DNA from: a virus
IMG/VR virus record: IMGVR_UViG_3300005613_000440
Coordinates: 1 to 22,359 of that record
DNA: 22,359 nt
Strand: one strand, 5' to 3'
Of the stretch, positions 3,841-16,287 are shown in pieces. The notes under the pieces are model-generated. The model was not told the DNA's origin and made no database searches. It saw only the letters and a program-made list of their open reading frames with translations. The position numbers and the translations under genes are program-made. Each line of letters opens with the position of its first letter. Position 1 is the stretch's first letter.

Positions 3841-4271
3841 TGGATAAAAAAATATCACAATTAACACAATTAACCGCAAGAACAGAGAGTGATGTTATTG
3901 CGATAGTAAATGGAGGTTCAACGAAGAAAATATCTGTTGAAGATTTTATCAGAGAACCTGTCATAAACGCAGGTAGTGTATCAGGTGGAATATCAGTTGA
4001 TTTATCTTTGGGTAGATGGTTTATCTTCACTTTAACAGACAATGTATCCGTTTCATTATCAAATGAAAAAGAAGGTGAGGAGTTCTTATTTTGGGTATAT
4101 GCTGACGGAAACCCAAGTATAACAAGTATGACTTTAACATCAGGTGGAAACATATATTGTGTTGGAGGCACATTACCAAATATCGCTAATAATGCTTGGA
4201 ACTTGTATAGAGGTTTTGTGATAAATGGAGGATTGGTATTAACAGAACTTGATAACTTCGCAGCAATATAA
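3840..4271 (+). CDS. Small tail-fibre-like protein
   Basis: A 143-aa protein that opens with KKISQLTQLTARTESDVIA and then IVNGGSTKKISVEDF. This is the same module as in the fibre at 29-1012 (QLPEQTG, DDLLVIVDSG, TSKIKV). The remainder (residues 45-143) is a short beta-rich domain with repeated Gly/Ser/Thr and a single cysteine, without the GGxN repeats. It starts on the last base of the upstream stop. The shared module probably docks both proteins to the same virion component, or is a folding unit. A short fibre or decoration protein is the best guess. Confidence 0.6.
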   Translation: MDKKISQLTQLTARTESDVIAIVNGGSTKKISVEDFIREPVINAGSVSGGISVDLSLGRWFIFTLTDNVSVSLSNEKEGEEFLFWVYADGNPSITSMTLTSGGNIYCVGGTLPNIANNAWNLYRGFVINGGLVLTELDNFAAI

Positions 4272-4278
4272 TATTTAT
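4270..4278 (+). promoter_or_regulatory. ATATTTAT boundary element before the portal gene
   Basis: AATATTTAT overlaps the TAA stop of the upstream gene and ends 5 nt before the ATG at 4284. A TTG occurs at 4249-4251, giving an 18-nt spacer, so this copy could have a weak -33 box. Confidence 0.5.
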
Positions 4279-4283
4279 AGAAT

Positions 4284-5363
4284 ATGGAAAAACAATTTCA
4301 CGCATTTGGTAGAAGAATAGATAGTGTTAATCGCTTTGAAGAAAAGGTGGTTAGAAACCAAGATTGGGTATCTTGGGGAAGCGAGAATAATTTTGCTGAA
4401 ACACTATATGATTACATAGATTATAACCCCACACATAACGCATGTATCAACGCAAAGGTAAGAAATGTCTTAGGTCAAGGGTTCGTTGATGGTGATAGAT
4501 TGGTGAATGGAACACAGACCTTAAATGAGTTCTTTATGGAATATGCCACAGAGTATATAACCACAGGAAACGCCTTTATTGAGTCAGTATGGTCTGCTGA
4601 TAGGACGGAGGGTTTAAATGGAATATACACCCTTCCCTCGTCGTCTGTGAGGGTTCAGAAGAAGGATACGATAGATGAAGAACAGAAGGTTTATTATTAT
4701 TGTGAGGACTGGAAAGATTATAGAACAAAAAGTATTATTGAGTTCAGTAAGTTAGACCCAAACAATCAGAACAACAGACAAGTATATCATATCAAGAATT
4801 ACGCACCAGGATACAACTACTATGGTTCTCCTGACTATATGTCTGTTATCAACGATATTAGATTGGCACATAACATAACATTATTCCACTTATCAAACAT
4901 ATTGAATGGGGGAACACCGGGTTTATGGGTCAATTTCCCAAATGGTATTCCTGATAGCGACAACGAACAAAGAACGATGTTGGCTAAAATTGAAGAAAGA
5001 TTTTCAGGAGCAGAAGGAGCGGGTAAGACGATGGTTTCATTTAGTGATGGAGCAGAACTCGCACCAACAATTACACAAATCCCCTCAAATACACACGATG
5101 GTTATTATTCAGAAATATTTGAATTAACCCAAAGACAGATTTTATCGGGACACAAAATCACTTCAGGTCTTTTGATTGGATTGAATAACGGAGGTGGTCT
5201 TGGTTCAAACGCAGATGAGATTAACCAATCATTCCAAGTGTTCCTCAATACAACAATAAAACCATTACAAATGGAATTGGTAGAACAAATGAAACCCCTT
5301 ATTAAGTTGTTGTATCCAAACGAACAAATAAACTTGAGTATTATACAAAATCAAATACTATGA
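4284..5363 (+). CDS. Phage portal protein
   Basis: A 359-aa portal of the HK97-like family: the dodecameric ring at the capsid vertex through which DNA passes and to which the terminase docks. Visible family features are the N-terminal YNPTHNACINAKVRNVLGQG (residues about 47-70), the central GTPGLWVNFPNGIPDSD stretch, the GAEGAGKTMVSFSDG region, and a C-terminal helical part with LLIGLNNGGGLGSNADEI. It is slightly short for the family (commonly about 400 aa or more). GAGKT here is not a P-loop, since the family has no ATPase activity. An ATATTTAT element precedes it, and its stop overlaps the start of the next gene (ATGA). It lies far from the terminase genes (9910-12297), on the other side of a reverse-strand block. 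Confidence 0.8.
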   Translation: MEKQFHAFGRRIDSVNRFEEKVVRNQDWVSWGSENNFAETLYDYIDYNPTHNACINAKVRNVLGQGFVDGDRLVNGTQTLNEFFMEYATEYITTGNAFIESVWSADRTEGLNGIYTLPSSSVRVQKKDTIDEEQKVYYYCEDWKDYRTKSIIEFSKLDPNNQNNRQVYHIKNYAPGYNYYGSPDYMSVINDIRLAHNITLFHLSNILNGGTPGLWVNFPNGIPDSDNEQRTMLAKIEERFSGAEGAGKTMVSFSDGAELAPTITQIPSNTHDGYYSEIFELTQRQILSGHKITSGLLIGLNNGGGLGSNADEINQSFQVFLNTTIKPLQMELVEQMKPLIKLLYPNEQINLSIIQNQIL

Positions 5364-7630: not shown

Positions 7631-7650
7631 AAGGGGTCATAAACCCTTTT
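7631..7650 (-). terminator. Weak hairpin after the zinc-ribbon gene
   Basis: AAGGG (7631-7635) pairs with CCCTT (7644-7648), and the loop contains the TGA stop of the 7637-8074 gene. The minus-strand T-run is poor (TTAAAATT), so it may attenuate rather than end transcription into the 45-aa gene. Confidence 0.3.
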
Positions 7651-8074
7651 TCTCTTTTATCTGATATGGTGTATCATCTATCTCCAATTCAACCCCGTAT
7701 TTCTCCTTAATTCGTTCTGCGAATTGGATATGGATTGGTTTGGATAAATCGTAATTCATTTTCCTAAAAAACTCTATGGTAATCATTTGGTCTTCAGGTG
7801 TTGCTCCTTTGAGGTTAAGATGACGACCCGTAGGTTCAATCCAAGATGTTCCATATTGTTTATTAACTTTGGTTAATATCTTTCTGTTATTTTGATTTGT
7901 TTGTTCCCGTTTTATCTTCTTACAGGTGGAACAATAGATGTCTTTACCAAATGGTTTGTTTCTATTGTTAGTCATATCATATTCGGGACAGAATTGCTCG
8001 CATACATAACATTTGTAATACCACAATCCATCCTCACCCATATATCTTCTTTTTTCTTTAATCGGTCTTCCCAT
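7637..8074 (-). CDS. 145-aa zinc-ribbon protein
   Basis: A 145-aa protein. Residues 20-53 form a four-cysteine zinc ribbon: CYVC and, about 25 residues on, CSTC, with a further Cys in EQFCPEYD. A basic stretch follows (KKIKREQTNQNNRKILTKVNK). The C-terminal half is helical (TIEFFRKMNYDLSKPIHIQF, then RIKEKYGVELEID). It resembles small phage zinc-finger proteins that bind DNA or accompany HNH nucleases, but the HNH catalytic His/Asn pattern is not evident. It is the first minus-strand gene after the RNA locus, with its own promoter whose -33 box lies in the RNA's terminator. The motif ends only 5 nt before the ATG, implying a leaderless mRNA. Confidence 0.65.
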   Translation of the reverse strand: MGRPIKEKRRYMGEDGLWYYKCYVCEQFCPEYDMTNNRNKPFGKDIYCSTCKKIKREQTNQNNRKILTKVNKQYGTSWIEPTGRHLNLKGATPEDQMITIEFFRKMNYDLSKPIHIQFAERIKEKYGVELEIDDTPYQIKEKKGL

Positions 8075-8079
8075 AATAA

Positions 8080-8109
8080 TAAATATAGTTCAATAAAAAA
8101 AAGGAACAA
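8080..8109 (-). promoter_or_regulatory. Promoter of the zinc-ribbon gene
   Basis: On the minus strand: TTG (8109-8107), 19-nt spacer, TATATTTA (8087-8080), then 5 nt to the ATG at 8074. The spacer runs through the T-run of the upstream RNA terminator. Confidence 0.6.
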
Positions 8110-8127
8110 GTAATTAACTTATTCCTT
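8095..8127 (-). terminator. Intrinsic terminator of the structured RNA
   Basis: On the minus strand: an 11-position stem (8127-8117 with 8111-8101, one A/C mismatch), 5-nt loop, and an eight-T run at 8102-8095 whose first two positions are shared with the 3' arm. No protein gene lies upstream of it on this strand between 8127 and 8530, so it appears dedicated to the RNA. Confidence 0.85.
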
Positions 8128-8530
8128 TAATGATTGATTTAACTAATCAAACAAAGCCGTCCTACTTGCTGTATATAAATATATTAAATTATATGATTTT
8201 ATCAACACAGCACACCTACTCTTTTACTTAATCCCCCTTTGTTCGTCAGGTTCTTAAGATTTGATTACCAATTCTATTCTTACATCCCCCCTCTGTTTAA
8301 CATTTCACCACTTAAACAGATATTGTGTTAATGTCTTTCTGTATTCACAATTAACACCTGTAAGAACCATCATATACCTTTTTACTTGTGGAGTAGATTA
8401 AGTCGGTATTACATTTTGTCAGTAGGACGACATTATTATGTAAAATGATGTTTGATTAGTAGTTGTCTTGAGTTGTTATGGATAATCAGTCCTTTATCGG
8501 TCAAGTCAAATTAACACCGATGTTATGTCT
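8095..8530 (-). ncRNA. Putative large structured phage ncRNA (about 435 nt)
   Basis: A gene-free interval with a perfect promoter (TTG-N20-TATATTTA) at its start and an intrinsic terminator at its end. Complementary arms are nested, given here in plus coordinates. P1 is 12 bp (8449-8460 with 8142-8153). P2 is 11 bp with one G-U (8421-8431 with 8156-8166). P3 is 8 bp (8396-8403 with 8226-8233). P4 is 8 bp (8359-8366 with 8277-8284). Hairpins are P5 (8350-8357 with 8325-8332), P6 (9 bp, 8312-8320 with 8292-8300), P7 (8204-8212 region with 8167-8174, abutting P2) and a 5' hairpin (8516-8521 with 8496-8501). P1 and P2 close a domain of about 320 nt. No open frame of useful length on either strand. 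Similar in style to the large phage RNAs ROOL and GOLLD, but I do not recognise it as either. A packaging RNA or antisense regulator is also possible. Confidence 0.75.
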
Positions 8531-8535
8531 AATAA

Positions 8536-8566
8536 TAAATATATCAATGAAACAAAAAAGTTTCAA
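8536..8566 (-). promoter_or_regulatory. Promoter of the structured RNA
   Basis: On the minus strand: TTG (8566-8564), 20-nt spacer, TATATTTA (8543-8536), followed by TTATTA, which places the start near 8530. The -7 region is the same as that of the zinc-ribbon gene (TATATTTATTATTA), but no ATG follows. Confidence 0.7.
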
Positions 8567-8876: not shown

Positions 8877-9140
8877 ATGGAAAAATATTTGACTTATCTT
8901 CTACCGGTCTTAACCACACTATTAGGTTATTGGGGAGGAAATTATAAAAGAAAAAAGAATGAAGAGAGTTTATACATTCAAAATCTCAACGAAAGTTTAA
9001 AAGCATACAACCAGGTAATCCTTGATATGAAACAAAGATACGATGAGGAACTCAAGAGATTAGAATTAAAATGTGAAGGATATGAAAAAATGATACAAGA
9101 ACTCAAAGATAAAATTGACTTATTGGAACATAATAGTTAA
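8877..9140 (+). CDS. Membrane-anchored coiled-coil protein
   Basis: An 87-aa protein. Residues 4-21 (YLTYLLPVLTTLLGYWGG) form one hydrophobic segment. A basic cluster (NYKRKKNEE, residues 22-30) follows, then a long heptad-like helix (residues about 35-85, with LKAYNQVILDMKQRYDEEL and MIQELKDKIDLLEHN). The layout is that of an i-spanin or of a membrane-tethered helper protein. The KRKK patch just after the TM segment predicts a cytoplasmic coiled coil, which does not fit a spanin. The nearby holin candidate (9719) makes a lysis or cell-envelope role plausible. The gene ends about 50 bp before a strong terminator. Confidence 0.55.
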   Translation: MEKYLTYLLPVLTTLLGYWGGNYKRKKNEESLYIQNLNESLKAYNQVILDMKQRYDEELKRLELKCEGYEKMIQELKDKIDLLEHNS

Positions 9141-9718: not shown

Positions 9719-9910
9719 ATGAACGAAAAAGTATATTCAGTATTGAGACATATTTTGTCCTTCGCGGGTGGTGTCTTAATAACAAAAGGTGTAATAGACG
9801 AAGCGGGACTTGAAGAAGTCGTTGGTTCATTAATGACTATCATCGCGTTCGGTTGGTCGTATTACAATAAAATAAAGTTTGAGGGGTCTGAACCCACAGA
9901 AGAGAAATAA
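9719..9910 (+). CDS. Two-TM holin-like protein
   Basis: A 63-aa protein with two hydrophobic segments. Residues 8-24 (VLRHILSFAGGVLITKG) and residues 33-48 (VVGSLMTIIAFGWSYY) are joined by an acidic turn (VIDEAGLEE). A charged tail follows (NKIKFEGSEPTEEK). The pattern LRH-x4-GG-x(4)-KG...VVG...W(S)xxxK is typical of small phage holins, which form the membrane lesion that times lysis. No endolysin gene is visible beside it, so lysis partners must lie elsewhere or be among the unknowns. Its stop overlaps the terminase small subunit start (TAATG). Confidence 0.65.
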   Translation: MNEKVYSVLRHILSFAGGVLITKGVIDEAGLEEVVGSLMTIIAFGWSYYNKIKFEGSEPTEEK

Positions 9911-10371
9911 TGGAACAGAAGAACCCCCCTCATAGACCCACTTATGTTAATCTTGACTGGTTGGTTGAGCGGGGTAAAGTTCTGCCAACTTGGGAAGAGG
10001 ACATACTTGAATTAGGTAGAAATGGAAAAAACAAAACAGATTTTGCCAACTACTTAAACATAGGTAGAGATGTAATGTATCGTCTGTTTGATAGAGACCC
10101 AAAGTTCAAAAAGGTTGTAGCAAAAGCGATGGAATTATCTGAAGCATGGTGGGTTGAAAAAGCCAGAGTGGCATGGGAAGAAGGAACATCACAAAAACTA
10201 AATGCTACATTCTTCAAATATTTTATGAGTAATGTTTATAGAGATAGTTGGAAAACAAATATTGATATTACCACAGATGGTGATAAGATTAAACAAGACG
10301 ATAAAATAAAAATAGAGATTATCCGTCCCATCATAGATGAAGAAAACGACGACCAAAGTGAAAATAAATAA
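9910..10371 (+). CDS. Terminase small subunit
   Basis: A 153-aa protein with an N-terminal helix-turn-helix region (NGKNKTDFANYLNIGRDVMY, then RLFDRDPKFKKVVAKAMELS, residues about 37-76). A helical oligomerisation region follows (ELSEAWWVEKARVAWEEG and LNATFFKYFMSNVYRDSW, residues about 73-115). An acidic, disordered C-terminus is expected to contact the large subunit. The arrangement and length fit small terminases, which recognise phage DNA for packaging. It lies upstream of the large subunit but is separated from it by a GIY-YIG cassette. The start overlaps the holin-like stop. Confidence 0.75.
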   Translation: MEQKNPPHRPTYVNLDWLVERGKVLPTWEEDILELGRNGKNKTDFANYLNIGRDVMYRLFDRDPKFKKVVAKAMELSEAWWVEKARVAWEEGTSQKLNATFFKYFMSNVYRDSWKTNIDITTDGDKIKQDDKIKIEIIRPIIDEENDDQSENK

Positions 10372-10486: not shown

Positions 10487-11074
10487 ATGGAACATAAAGA
10501 ATGGATTGTATATCAACATCGTAGAAAAGATACAGGTGAAATCTTTTATATTGGTATTGGAAAAAAGTATCGTCCTTATACCACGAATAATAGAAATAAA
10601 ATGTGGATAAATGTTGTTAATAAAACAGATTATGATATTGAAATTGTTAATAGTTTTGATAGAAGAATTGATGCTGAAAAACTTGAAATTAAACTTATCA
10701 AATTATATGGTAGAAGAGATTTAGGACTTGGCACACTAGTTAATATGACTGATGGGGGAGATGGTTGTGAAGGTAGAGTATGGACTAAAGAACAACTAAT
10801 TTCCAAAGGAAAAAAAATTAGAGGTGAAAAAAATGGTATGTTTGGTAGAAAATGGAGTGAAGATGAAATTAAAATATTCAGTAAAAAATCACAAGGGACA
10901 AATAATAAAAACTCAAAACTAACAGAAGAAGATGTTATATGGATTAGAAAAAATGGTGTAAAAGGTAATAATCAATATGATAAAGGTAATTTAAATGATA
11001 TTGCTAAAATGTTTAATATAAGTCGTAATATGGTTAATAGAATTATTAATAGAAAAAGTTGGACGCACATATAA
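10487..11074 (+). CDS. GIY-YIG homing endonuclease
   Basis: A 195-aa free-standing homing nuclease. Residues about 6-30 carry the GIY-YIG core in the variant form IVYQHRR...IFYIGIGK, followed by the conserved Arg region (KKYRPY). The family's Glu is likely in KLEIKLIKLYG, and VNMTDGGDG closes the catalytic domain (residues about 60-95). Residues about 105-145 resemble a NUMOD3 DNA-binding repeat (GEKNGMFGRKWSEDEIKIFS). Residues about 150-195 form a helix-turn-helix (DIAKMFNISRNMVNRIINRK) ending SWTHI. It lies alone between two terminators with its own host-type promoter, a self-contained mobile cassette between the two terminase genes. It is somewhat more AT-rich than its neighbours by eye. 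Confidence 0.85.
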   Translation: MEHKEWIVYQHRRKDTGEIFYIGIGKKYRPYTTNNRNKMWINVVNKTDYDIEIVNSFDRRIDAEKLEIKLIKLYGRRDLGLGTLVNMTDGGDGCEGRVWTKEQLISKGKKIRGEKNGMFGRKWSEDEIKIFSKKSQGTNNKNSKLTEEDVIWIRKNGVKGNNQYDKGNLNDIAKMFNISRNMVNRIINRKSWTHI

Positions 11075-11139: not shown

Positions 11140-12297
11140 ATGGCAAAGATACAAACTACTAAAGTATTTGAGGAGATTGAAAACAACATAGATAACTACA
11201 GAATGATTAGTTGTCGCGGGGGAAGTAGGTCTGGTAAGACATATAACATTTGTATATGGATTGTAGTGTATTGTTTAAGGAATACGGGGAAAACAATAAC
11301 CATAGTAAGGAAGAACTACCCATCATTAAAAGGCTCCGTTATGAGGGACTTTATTGAGGTATTAGATAAGTTCGGGAAGTATAATCCAAATGACTTACAT
11401 AAACAGGAAATGTATTATGAACTAAACGGAAATACAATAGAGTTTCTTAACGCAGATGACGAACAAAAATTACGAGGCAGACGGAGAAATCTACTATGGA
11501 TAAACGAGAGTAATGAACTACATAGAGATGAATACACCCAACTAGCAATAAGAACCACAGACAAGATTATATTGGATTATAACCCAAGTGATATAGATAG
11601 TTGGATATATGAAGAAGAGGAGAAGGATACTTGTTATTGGTTCAAAACGACATTTTTAGATAATCCATTTTTATCACAAGAAATCATAGATGAAATTAAA
11701 GGATTGAAAGATAAAGATGAGAACTTATACAGAGTATTCACATTAGGGGAAAGGGGAATAGCAAGGAGTTTAGTATTCAACAAATATACAGAAGAAACTG
11801 AAATACCACCACAAGCAAAGTTATTGGGATATGGTATGGACTTCGGTTTTGTTGATAGTTCAGTATTGGTTCAGGTTTATAAAATGGGGGAACACCTATA
11901 CTTCAAAGAACTAATCTATGAGAGTAATTTAACCATACCTGATTTGATATATCGTATGGAGCAATTAAGTATGGATAGAACAGATACAATATGGGCTGAT
12001 AGTTCCCAACCAGCAGCGATAGAACAAATTAGAAGGGCGGGGTTTAATATCAAACCAGTTAAGAAGACCACAATACAATATGGTTTAGACCTCCTTAAAA
12101 GACACTATATACATATTGTATCTTCCCCAAATATAGTAAAAGAGTTCAACTCTTACAAATATAAAACAGATAAAGATGGGAAGATATTGGGTGTCCCTGA
12201 AGATAAACACAACCATAGTATAGATAGTATCCGGTATTGTGTGGAGATGGAGTTAGACCCAAAGAAAATAAACAGAGGAAAATATGCTATAATATGA
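11140..12297 (+). CDS. terL: Terminase large subunit
   Basis: A 385-aa packaging ATPase/nuclease of the PBSX-like Terminase_3 type. The Walker A motif GGSRSGKT is at residues 27-34. The Walker B-like strand NLLWINE is at 117-123, with Glu123 as catalytic carboxylate and Asn replacing the usual Asp. The C-terminal RNase H-like nuclease shows the expected acidic triad: Asp234 (GYGMDFGF), Asp287 (TIWADSS) and Asp362 (HNHSIDSIRY). It moves DNA through the portal and cuts concatemers. The length is complete for this family, and no frameshift was seen. It is separated from the small subunit by the GIY-YIG cassette and overlaps the HNH nuclease start by 4 nt (ATGA). Confidence 0.93.
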   Translation: MAKIQTTKVFEEIENNIDNYRMISCRGGSRSGKTYNICIWIVVYCLRNTGKTITIVRKNYPSLKGSVMRDFIEVLDKFGKYNPNDLHKQEMYYELNGNTIEFLNADDEQKLRGRRRNLLWINESNELHRDEYTQLAIRTTDKIILDYNPSDIDSWIYEEEEKDTCYWFKTTFLDNPFLSQEIIDEIKGLKDKDENLYRVFTLGERGIARSLVFNKYTEETEIPPQAKLLGYGMDFGFVDSSVLVQVYKMGEHLYFKELIYESNLTIPDLIYRMEQLSMDRTDTIWADSSQPAAIEQIRRAGFNIKPVKKTTIQYGLDLLKRHYIHIVSSPNIVKEFNSYKYKTDKDGKILGVPEDKHNHSIDSIRYCVEMELDPKKINRGKYAII

Positions 12298-12713
12298 CTT
12301 ATTACGCAGATAAAGAAGGGAATGTATATAACGAGAACGGAAGACAAATGAAGTTCTGGATTAACCCATCGGGGTATTATTATTTCAAGATGTATTATGA
12401 TGGAGCAGCACACGCATCATCAGTCCATAGGTTCGTATATGAATACTTCAACGAACCCATACCAAAAGGATTAACGATAGACCATATCAACGAAGATAAA
12501 CTTGATAATAGATTGGAGAACCTACGACTAACGACCAATGCGTTTAATTGTAGAAGGAGGGAATACAACAAACTCAATATGGAATTAGCAGAAGAGATAA
12601 GAGACTTGTATTCAAAAAATATTTATAGTTATTCACAACTGGCAGCGATGTTTGATGTTGCAAAGACAACAATATCAAATTGTATAAAAGGAAAAACTTG
12701 GAGTAAGATATGA
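12294..12713 (+). CDS. HNH homing endonuclease
   Basis: A 139-aa nuclease of the HNH_3 type. The core is VHRFVYEYF (residues about 43-51), IPKGLTIDHINEDKLDNRLE (residues about 56-75), then NLRLTT. His in VHR, Asp-His in IDHIN and Asn in DNRLENL form the catalytic metal site. Residues about 98-139 are a helix-turn-helix module (YSQLAAMFDVAKTTISNCIK) ending TWSKI, like the end of the GIY-YIG protein. I start it at 12294 rather than the in-frame Met at 12237, because 12294 gives the 4-nt ATGA overlap with terL and the longer version would lie inside terL. Its stop overlaps the next start the same way. It was inserted without breaking the operon. Confidence 0.85.
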   Translation: MTYYADKEGNVYNENGRQMKFWINPSGYYYFKMYYDGAAHASSVHRFVYEYFNEPIPKGLTIDHINEDKLDNRLENLRLTTNAFNCRRREYNKLNMELAEEIRDLYSKNIYSYSQLAAMFDVAKTTISNCIKGKTWSKI

Positions 12714-14018: not shown

Positions 14019-14557
14019 TGGAGGAGATGTTAGAAATACTCGTTAAACAACTCAAGGTTGAACTGGCAAAGAACTATCAACCAAGAGGATATAACATTCA
14101 AAGAAACAGACCTGGTGTTCCCAAGACGATAGGACAATATCCAAAGAACAACACAAAGAGATTGAGTGATAGTATTGGTTATGAGATAAGAGAGGTTGAT
14201 GGTGAAGAGATGGGACTTATTGTAATGGAAGATTATTATGAGTTTGTAGATAGAGGTAGAAAACCTGGTGGTAGTGGTTCAGGGACAACATTTAGAAGAG
14301 CCTTGGATACTTGGGTTAGACAGAAGATAGGAACATTCCCCGGTCTTTCATTTGAGACAACATCATTCCTCGTTAGAAGAAGTGTATGGATGAAAGGTAT
14401 AGGTGGAATAAACTTTATAAACAACGCAATAGATAATATAATAGATGAGATGGTAGATAAAGGTGAAGACGAATTTGCAGATAGATTTGAAGAGTTTGTA
14501 GATGAAAAACTATTGGTATTATCAAAAACATCAAATGATATAACATATAATACATAA
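14018..14557 (+). CDS. HK97 gp10-like head-tail/tail completion protein
   Basis: A 179-aa protein. The key feature is DYYEFVDRGRKPGGSGSG (residues about 69-86), which matches the DYaxYVxxGRkPG motif of HK97 gp10-like and virion-morphogenesis proteins. RALDTWVRQKIGT and the aromatic/basic SFLVRRSVWMKGIGGINFI follow, also in family order. An acidic helical C-terminus follows (DEMVDKGEDEFADRFEEFVD). These proteins complete the head-tail joint or tail top. It is coupled to both neighbours by TAATG overlaps. The role is firm at family level; its exact place in the virion is inferred. Confidence 0.7.
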   Translation: MEEMLEILVKQLKVELAKNYQPRGYNIQRNRPGVPKTIGQYPKNNTKRLSDSIGYEIREVDGEEMGLIVMEDYYEFVDRGRKPGGSGSGTTFRRALDTWVRQKIGTFPGLSFETTSFLVRRSVWMKGIGGINFINNAIDNIIDEMVDKGEDEFADRFEEFVDEKLLVLSKTSNDITYNT

Positions 14558-16287
14558 TGGGACAGATTAGTATAATAAAAGATATAGAAGGAACACAACC
14601 CACATTATCACCTGATAATTATTTCGTATTATCTGCGGATACAAACACAGAATTTAATTTTAGATATGTATATGATTTATATGTCTTTAACCAAAGGGTA
14701 TTCACAGGTAAATTAACCCCCAATCCTGAAGGGGTGGGTATAGTTCCAGTTGGAGAAATTATACACGATTTCGCAAAGAACGCACCTGTGGCATATATAG
14801 CAAATCTAACAGGTGGAACAAATAATTTTATACACCAAACAGAAAACTTTTCAACACCTCAACAAGATGAGGTTATCAACTGGTGGTGTAATTTTGGTGA
14901 AGAACATTCAACAACAATATCATCAACACCAACACCATATACTGGTCTTGGAACTCAAATAGGAAACCCCGCATATCCATCAGGACTACAAAGAAGTTTC
15001 TTGGGGACTATGGGTAGAAACATATTCTCAAACTTACAGAAATTAGATACAGACAAATTCTTTATGAATGGATATGATGGGTTATTCCCCTCAACAGATA
15101 ATCTGTTCTTAACGAACTCACCAAGAATAAGAGATATAGGTTCTGATGAGTATTTTACCTTATCTGCCTTAAACTATATCTTACCAAGTGAAGCAAACCC
15201 TAATGGGGACTATTCGTATGTCTATGACGCTGAATATAATTTCTACGATAACGATGGAACATTAATATCAGGTTATACCATAGCAAACACAAAAGAATAT
15301 GGTGGTGGTCCCAGAGAAGCGTGTAATGAGGATTATGAAAATTATGTATTACCGACAGGTGAGACACAAAGTTATTGGAATGTTATTCACATAGCAGCGG
15401 GAACAAAAAACATATATATACCTAACGGAACAAAGTATTATACATTACAATTAAGGGGCTTACCATCAACCCCTCCCCCGACGCCTACTCCCACTACCTT
15501 ACCACCTGGTTTTACATCGTGGAGATTAAGGAGTTGTTGCGAACCTGAAAACTTTATCATCGCTGGTATTGAAAGTGGTTATACAGGGTCTGTAAGAGTT
15601 TATAACAATAATTGTTATTATGCTGACGAACAAGTTGCGGGAGCATCATTTACAATATCAGGTGGTGCTACTCACGCTAATTGTAGTAGTTGTATTGATG
15701 AATACGCTTGTAGAAGTATTCCATCAAAAGGGGACAATACCCCCACTCCTACGCCGACCTTTACACCCACATCACCTAATAGTGGTGGAGCAAGAATTAT
15801 TTGTCCTGAATGGAACTACTCAAGTGAGATATTCCAATTTAATATTATAGATGATTGTGATAACCCTTATGATACAAACCAGTTCTTGTTTAAAAACAGA
15901 TATGGAACTTGGGACTACTTCACATTCCGTAAAAAGAAGATAGAACAGATTGATATACAAAGAGAAAGGTATAATCAATTTGATATTACCTATGGGTCAG
16001 CAAATCCTGTTAAAGAACCATTTAATCGTGGTCTAACAGATTATTCAACACAGATAAGAGAGGTTCATACATACAATACAGGATTTATCAACGAACCTGA
16101 TATGTATTATCTTGAGGAGTTATTCACATCAAATGATGTGTATATGATATTAGATAACGGAGTTCCATTTCCGATAAACATATTATCTAACTCATTTGAG
16201 AAGAAGACGAAGGGTAGAGGAAAAGAAATAACAAACATAACGATTGAATTTGAGTTTGCTAATAACATTAAACTATTGGATAAGTAA
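14557..16287 (+). CDS. Tail protein with Pro/Thr-flanked Cys-rich insertion
   Basis: A 576-aa tail-region protein. N-terminal residues 1-300 and C-terminal residues about 412-576 look like one beta-rich structural protein. The C-terminal part has FLFKNRYGTWDYFTFRKKK, of a type seen in Bacteroidota phage tail proteins. Between them, residues about 304-319 (STPPPTPTPTTLPPG) and 393-410 (NTPTPTPTFTPTS) are Pro/Thr linkers. They frame a domain of about 75 residues with eight or more cysteines or paired cysteines (RSCCEPE, NNNCYY, NCSSC, YACRS). That domain resembles in style the C-terminal module of the 1188-2114 protein. It looks like a loop-displayed domain inserted into a tube or baseplate protein. 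Starts on the upstream stop. Confidence 0.6.
   Translation: MGQISIIKDIEGTQPTLSPDNYFVLSADTNTEFNFRYVYDLYVFNQRVFTGKLTPNPEGVGIVPVGEIIHDFAKNAPVAYIANLTGGTNNFIHQTENFSTPQQDEVINWWCNFGEEHSTTISSTPTPYTGLGTQIGNPAYPSGLQRSFLGTMGRNIFSNLQKLDTDKFFMNGYDGLFPSTDNLFLTNSPRIRDIGSDEYFTLSALNYILPSEANPNGDYSYVYDAEYNFYDNDGTLISGYTIANTKEYGGGPREACNEDYENYVLPTGETQSYWNVIHIAAGTKNIYIPNGTKYYTLQLRGLPSTPPPTPTPTTLPPGFTSWRLRSCCEPENFIIAGIESGYTGSVRVYNNNCYYADEQVAGASFTISGGATHANCSSCIDEYACRSIPSKGDNTPTPTPTFTPTSPNSGGARIICPEWNYSSEIFQFNIIDDCDNPYDTNQFLFKNRYGTWDYFTFRKKKIEQIDIQRERYNQFDITYGSANPVKEPFNRGLTDYSTQIREVHTYNTGFINEPDMYYLEELFTSNDVYMILDNGVPFPINILSNSFEKKTKGRGKEITNITIEFEFANNIKLLDK

Follow-up and report, generated by a model that had tools for sequence, protein, structure and literature searches.

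To our knowledge, large folded RNAs encoded by phages are few, ROOL and GOLLD among them, and none has a settled role. Both are often located near phage tRNA genes. The phi29 pRNA is obligatory for packaging, and HEARO and omega RNAs partner HNH-containing nucleases of the IsrB type (IsrB/IscB/TnpB-type). Morons are inserted phage modules that carry their own promoter and terminator and provide a conditional benefit. A related arrangement is that of the PeSLs, which, as cited in PMC4503421, are promoter-terminator cassettes of phages. The locus described here would add a further, smaller large phage RNA, one that lies outside Rfam 15, belongs to phages most likely of Bacteroidota and is cleanly delimited as a gene on either side.

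The window, i.e. the whole stretch of DNA that was analysed, is a virus fragment of 22,359 bases comprising the entire record, and all genome-wide statements are limited to these 22 kb. The structured RNA (~436 nt) occupies positions 8095-8530 on the minus strand, between the portal gene (4284-5363) and the terminase genes, i.e. a small terminase-like gene (9910-10371) and the large terminase gene (11140-12297). The best terminase match among described phages reaches only ~35% identity, and the nearest ones infect Flavobacterium and Bacteroides; since, in addition, prophage-like relatives were found in assemblies of Flavobacteriaceae, Bacteroidales and Chitinophagaceae, the host of the phage is most likely some member of the Bacteroidota. 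A terminase search of IMG/VR gathered six related contigs, and one of these, L001, carries a second copy of the RNA. In the window the RNA is adjoined by g8605, a 79-aa gene that is absent from L001.

The RNA is bounded by transcription signals of its own. Its promoter, of the Bacteroidota -33/-7 type, lies at 8536-8566 (-) and consists of TTG (8566-8564), a 20-nt spacer and TATATTTA (8543-8536), the flavobacterial -7 consensus being TAnnTTTG (PMC9723704). The intrinsic terminator (8095-8128, -) has a 12-bp stem (8128-8117/8111-8100) followed by a U8 tract at 8102-8095. The coordinates, the promoter (8566-8536) and the terminator with its eight T (stem 8128-8100) were thus found as the preliminary description of this DNA had claimed; the 5' end of the RNA is placed from the promoter and the 3' end from the terminator. 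In L001 the promoter elements TTGAAACTTTTT and TATATTTATT are unchanged on either side of a diverged spacer, and 11 of the 12 terminator pairs are identical, one A-U having become G-U. The interval had also been called otherwise empty, which holds insofar as no ORF of at least 50 aa lies wholly within 8095-8530, but a 73-aa mechanical ORF (7892-8113, +) overlaps one end of it; the longest stop-to-stop frames inside the interval are of 47 codons (window) and 35 codons (L001). Judged from sequence, the minus-strand unit 8530-8095 can be predicted with some confidence to be one transcription unit, made up of a promoter, an RNA of ~436 nt and a terminator.

The minimum-energy fold of the minus strand has a free energy of -98.8 kcal/mol and a folding z of -3.0; the plus strand gives a similar z, because the helices are complementary. 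The two long-range helices reported earlier, P1 (12 bp, 8449-8460 with 8142-8153, -) and P2 (11 bp including one U-G, 8421-8431 with 8156-8166, -), both emerge unconstrained in this fold. A chance match of this kind had been judged very unlikely, which is a fair assessment but not a decisive one: a nested long-range pair of 12 and 11 bp arises in four of 300 dinucleotide shuffles, and P1 and P2 alone are therefore suggestive, no proof. In the overall architecture a long closing stem (P1-P2-P3-P4) leads into a branched apical domain formed by P5 and the hairpins P6 and P7, with P8 beside P2. Some smaller helices of the free fold (8379-8376/8248-8251 and 8275-8269/8257-8263) are not supported in L001, and a search for conserved pseudoknots (at least 5 bp and at least two G-C pairs, between unpaired regions) found none common to the window and L001.

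It is the compensatory changes in the second copy that establish a structured RNA. The homologue in L001, a related IMG/VR phage contig, lies at 4185-4632 (-) in the same place and orientation, is 74% identical, and keeps the promoter, all core helices and the terminator in order. In a structure-aware alignment, hand-adjusted by shifting two gaps of 2 nt each within the apical region in a way that favours structure, 70 of the 74 pairs of the core helices P1-P8 are kept and 16 are changed on both sides; under a null model in which substitutions fall independently at the rate of each helix, the maxima in 20,000 simulations were 64 pairs kept and 13 double changes. The earlier proposal, a large and structured RNA that the phage encodes between a promoter and a terminator of its own, is well borne out by this comparison. 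With the unadjusted alignment RNAalifold still finds seven double changes, of which P1, P4 and P5 account for five. When L001 is folded by itself, P1, P2, P4, P5, P6 and P7 are recovered, and the 92-nt apical domain has a folding z of -3.4 in the window and -3.3 in L001. The core helices hold 5 and 7 G-U pairs in the two sequences and no A-C pairs, and the minus strand is therefore the RNA strand.

The apical hairpins illustrate how the fold is kept while two hairpins are almost completely rewritten: 11 of their 17 pairs are changed on both sides and none is broken. P6 (8325-8357, stem 8357-8350 with 8332-8325, -), in which five of eight pairs are affected, replaces the strands GUGUUAAU/AUUAACAC of the window by GAAUAAGA/UCUUAUUC in L001, and P7 (8292-8320, stem 8320-8312 with 8300-8292, -), with six of nine, replaces UCUGUUUAA/UUAAACAGA by GAUUAACAA/UUGUUAAUC, with frame and junction unchanged in each case. 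Selection thus acts on base pairing, not on sequence. P5 (9 bp, 8359-8367 with 8276-8284, -), which closes the apical three-way junction, has one double and one single change and a broken end pair. Compensatory change in P1-P4, which the preliminary description had made a test of its proposal, is seen in part: P4 (8 bp, 8396-8403 with 8226-8233, -) has three double changes and one broken end pair, and P1, perfect in both phages, has one (A-U to U-A), but P2 keeps ten of its 11 pairs with one broken and zero double changes, and P3 (5 bp, 8405-8409 with 8212-8216, -) is invariant and so speaks neither for nor against. The hairpin P8 (8168-8211, pairing 8211-8205 with 8168-8174 and 8202-8198 with 8175-8179, -) is mostly invariant, with one pair broken and a folding z of its own of only about -1; it abuts P2, position 8211/8168 lying next to 8166, as had been noted. 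A 5' hairpin, P0 (8496-8521, -; UCGGU...GACCGA), has a counterpart GGGGU...ACCCC in the same place in L001, where two double changes in a partly shifted register lend it weak support. As the family has two members, each helix is judged on one comparison, in which P3, like the greater part of P1, P2 and P8, shows next to no variation. A possible switch is apparent at 8373-8409 (-), where the AUACC of P3 can alternatively pair fully with a downstream conserved GGUAU (AAAAAGGUAUAUG); this pairing and P3 are mutually exclusive in both copies.

The RNA had not been recognised as a member of a known family, and Rfam agrees, with no match at the gathering threshold for the whole window and none up to E 10 for the RNA region and L001. 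Four conserved 16-19-mers searched against IMG/VR returned L001 plus chance hits only (checked by eye and with nhmmer), blastn searches of 50,697 phage records and 72,556 plasmid records gave only short AT-rich matches, and a gapped P2 pattern, sought in 85,000 genomes of bacteria and archaea, had no match. When a covariance model built on the P4-P4' domain was run against 52 loci, 12 viral records and ~300 Bacteroidota genomes, it recovered the two founders only; the large genome search with the covariance model scored few candidates per genome and is a weak negative. The two copies thus represent a genuine, hitherto undescribed family of structured RNA with two known members.

The comparison with ROOL and GOLLD, as large, elaborately folded phage non-coding RNAs without settled function, is one in kind only (PMC12286853). 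Both form homo-oligomers (PMC12286853), and an RNA that is likewise phage-borne, large, elaborately folded and without a protein partner could be imagined to self-assemble into a cage or a similar multimer. We consider this improbable, and the resemblance and multimeric assembly proposed earlier find no positive backing: the RNA has no Rfam match to ROOL or GOLLD, it measures 436 nt compared with 659 and over 800, ARAGORN found no tRNA genes in the 22-kb window, and no kissing-loop sequence is preserved, the loops of P6 and P7 varying freely between the two copies.

Other relatives lack the RNA. In L002-L005 the terminases are 81-84% identical and both the endonuclease VII-like gene and g8877 (8877-9140 in the window) are present, yet the RNA is absent, and its covariance model found nothing in the corresponding slot. 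In L003-L005 other sequence with two other genes (read in L003) lies between the endonuclease VII-like gene and the next conserved gene, while the slot of L002 is rearranged, with the endonuclease VII-like gene inverted and short terminator-bearing units nearby. At L002:3550-3800 a short hairpin unit that runs out in a long stretch of T lies downstream of a Bacteroidota-type promoter (TATATTTATTATT); a further two terminators, each a hairpin with a T run, are found there, and these may be small RNAs with the same 18-nt promoter sequence. Since the RNA is missing from relatives with conserved terminases, it is best regarded as an accessory cassette rather than a core packaging RNA, an assignment drawn from the four contigs L002-L005, which are metagenomic and of which three are near-identical. 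A role in packaging had been among the earlier suggestions, and the position of the RNA between portal and terminase genes recalls phi29 pRNA as a phage RNA close to packaging genes; the absence from relatives that keep these genes, the different size and the lack of a pRNA match in Rfam leave such a role scarcely any probability, and a core packaging RNA is largely refuted.

The cassette has much in common with morons and PeSLs: an autonomous promoter and terminator surround the module, which some relatives have and others lack at that position, and the flanking promoters are similar. It differs in that the cargo is a structured RNA, not a protein gene, and in having a Bacteroidota -33/-7 promoter. 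A second promoter, that of the next gene (TTG-N20-TATATTTA, 8079-8109, -), overlaps the RNA terminator, and the RNA promoter region (8556-8530) and the next-gene promoter region (8102-8074) are 86% identical over 29 columns; L003 has a similar element in the corresponding position. Because the content of the slot varies among relatives and the flanking promoters are near-repeats, the layout looks like that of an exchangeable promoter-cargo-terminator module, with recombination as the presumed step of exchange.

The next gene (7637-8074, -) encodes an endonuclease VII-like protein of 145 aa (PHROG 1035, a weak match with E 1.5e-4) and begins 21 nt downstream of the RNA on the same strand. With promoter, structured RNA, terminator and gene following one another on one strand in both phages, and the gene adjoining the RNA in two of two cases, the RNA could be a cis-acting leader or attenuator that senses something and controls terminator read-through into the endonuclease VII-like gene. 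Such a function seems unlikely, given that the gene is served by a promoter of its own, which overlaps the terminator, that a similar element is present in L003-L005, all without the RNA, and that the only anti-terminator pairing common to both copies is a weak 7-nt match rich in U and G-U. Homologues of the protein were found by tblastn in L001-L005, i.e. also in relatives without the RNA, and that of L001 is 72% identical to its RNA-less counterpart in L002 but only ~49% to that of the window. L001 and L002, closest to each other by this protein, differ in the presence of the RNA, which speaks against the leader and shows that the RNA is not tied to the nuclease lineage. The same mismatch weighs on the idea that the RNA serves the adjacent protein as partner or guide, in the fashion of HEARO and omega RNAs. 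Like the IsrB-associated HEARO, the RNA directly precedes a nuclease gene of the same strand, here, in both phages, one with matches to endonuclease VII families, but the small size of the protein, its weak endonuclease VII match, its occurrence without the RNA and the absence of a HEARO match in Rfam render a partnership highly improbable. The neighbouring genes g7208 and g8877 are 98% and 90% identical between the window and L001, compared with the ~49% of the endonuclease VII-like protein, hinting that the divergent segment may have been replaced through recombination.

Host regulation, the remaining early suggestion, is possible in principle, but no target rises above noise level. Neither Flavobacterium rRNA nor the remaining phage sequence of the window is complementary to the RNA beyond background. 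The initiation codon region is the usual target of bacterial sRNAs, and the segment 5'-UAAUCAAACAUCAUUUUACAUAAUAA-3' (8458-8433, -) is complementary at 26 of 28 positions, save a 2-nt gap, to that of a small conserved gene that ~10 Flavobacterium genomes carry between oxyR and mnmD. An antisense regulator of this host gene is nevertheless very unlikely: the match has an E of ~0.002 per genome, and some match with E up to 0.01 turns up in ~13% of genomes; the strand concerned is tied up in P1; and the L001 RNA has no match to the oxyR-mnmD gene, its changes in P1 keeping the helix and worsening the match.

The reading that we favour, and that is probably correct, is an independent non-coding RNA gene of a new family, carried as an accessory cassette of a Bacteroidota phage and putatively trans-acting; action in trans is the most likely mode for such an accessory RNA. 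After infection the phage would transcribe the RNA from its own promoter, and the RNA would fold into a compact scaffold that presents the conserved unpaired segments UCCAUAACAA-CUCAAG, UAAAAAGGUAUAUG and GAAUAGAAUNGGUAAUCAAA in trans to a target in the host or in a competing phage. Like a moron, the RNA may confer a conditional benefit, and the cassette could enter and leave the genome by recombination between the similar flanking promoter sequences. A bolder extension, which we regard as doubtful, is a new class of accessory, protein-independent effector RNAs, perhaps multimeric, that would be swapped among Bacteroidota phages as promoter-RNA-terminator cassettes and counter host defences or rival phages. 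The natural pairs of close relatives with and without the RNA make the effect of carrying it directly testable.

Elsewhere in the window, two regions flanking the large terminase gene (10487-11074 and 12237-12713) contain ORFs that by eye resemble GIY-YIG and HNH homing endonucleases, and in the virion region (1188-2808 and 14557-16287) several proteins contain long low-complexity repeats rich in Thr and Pro (SITPTITPT, PTPTPT).
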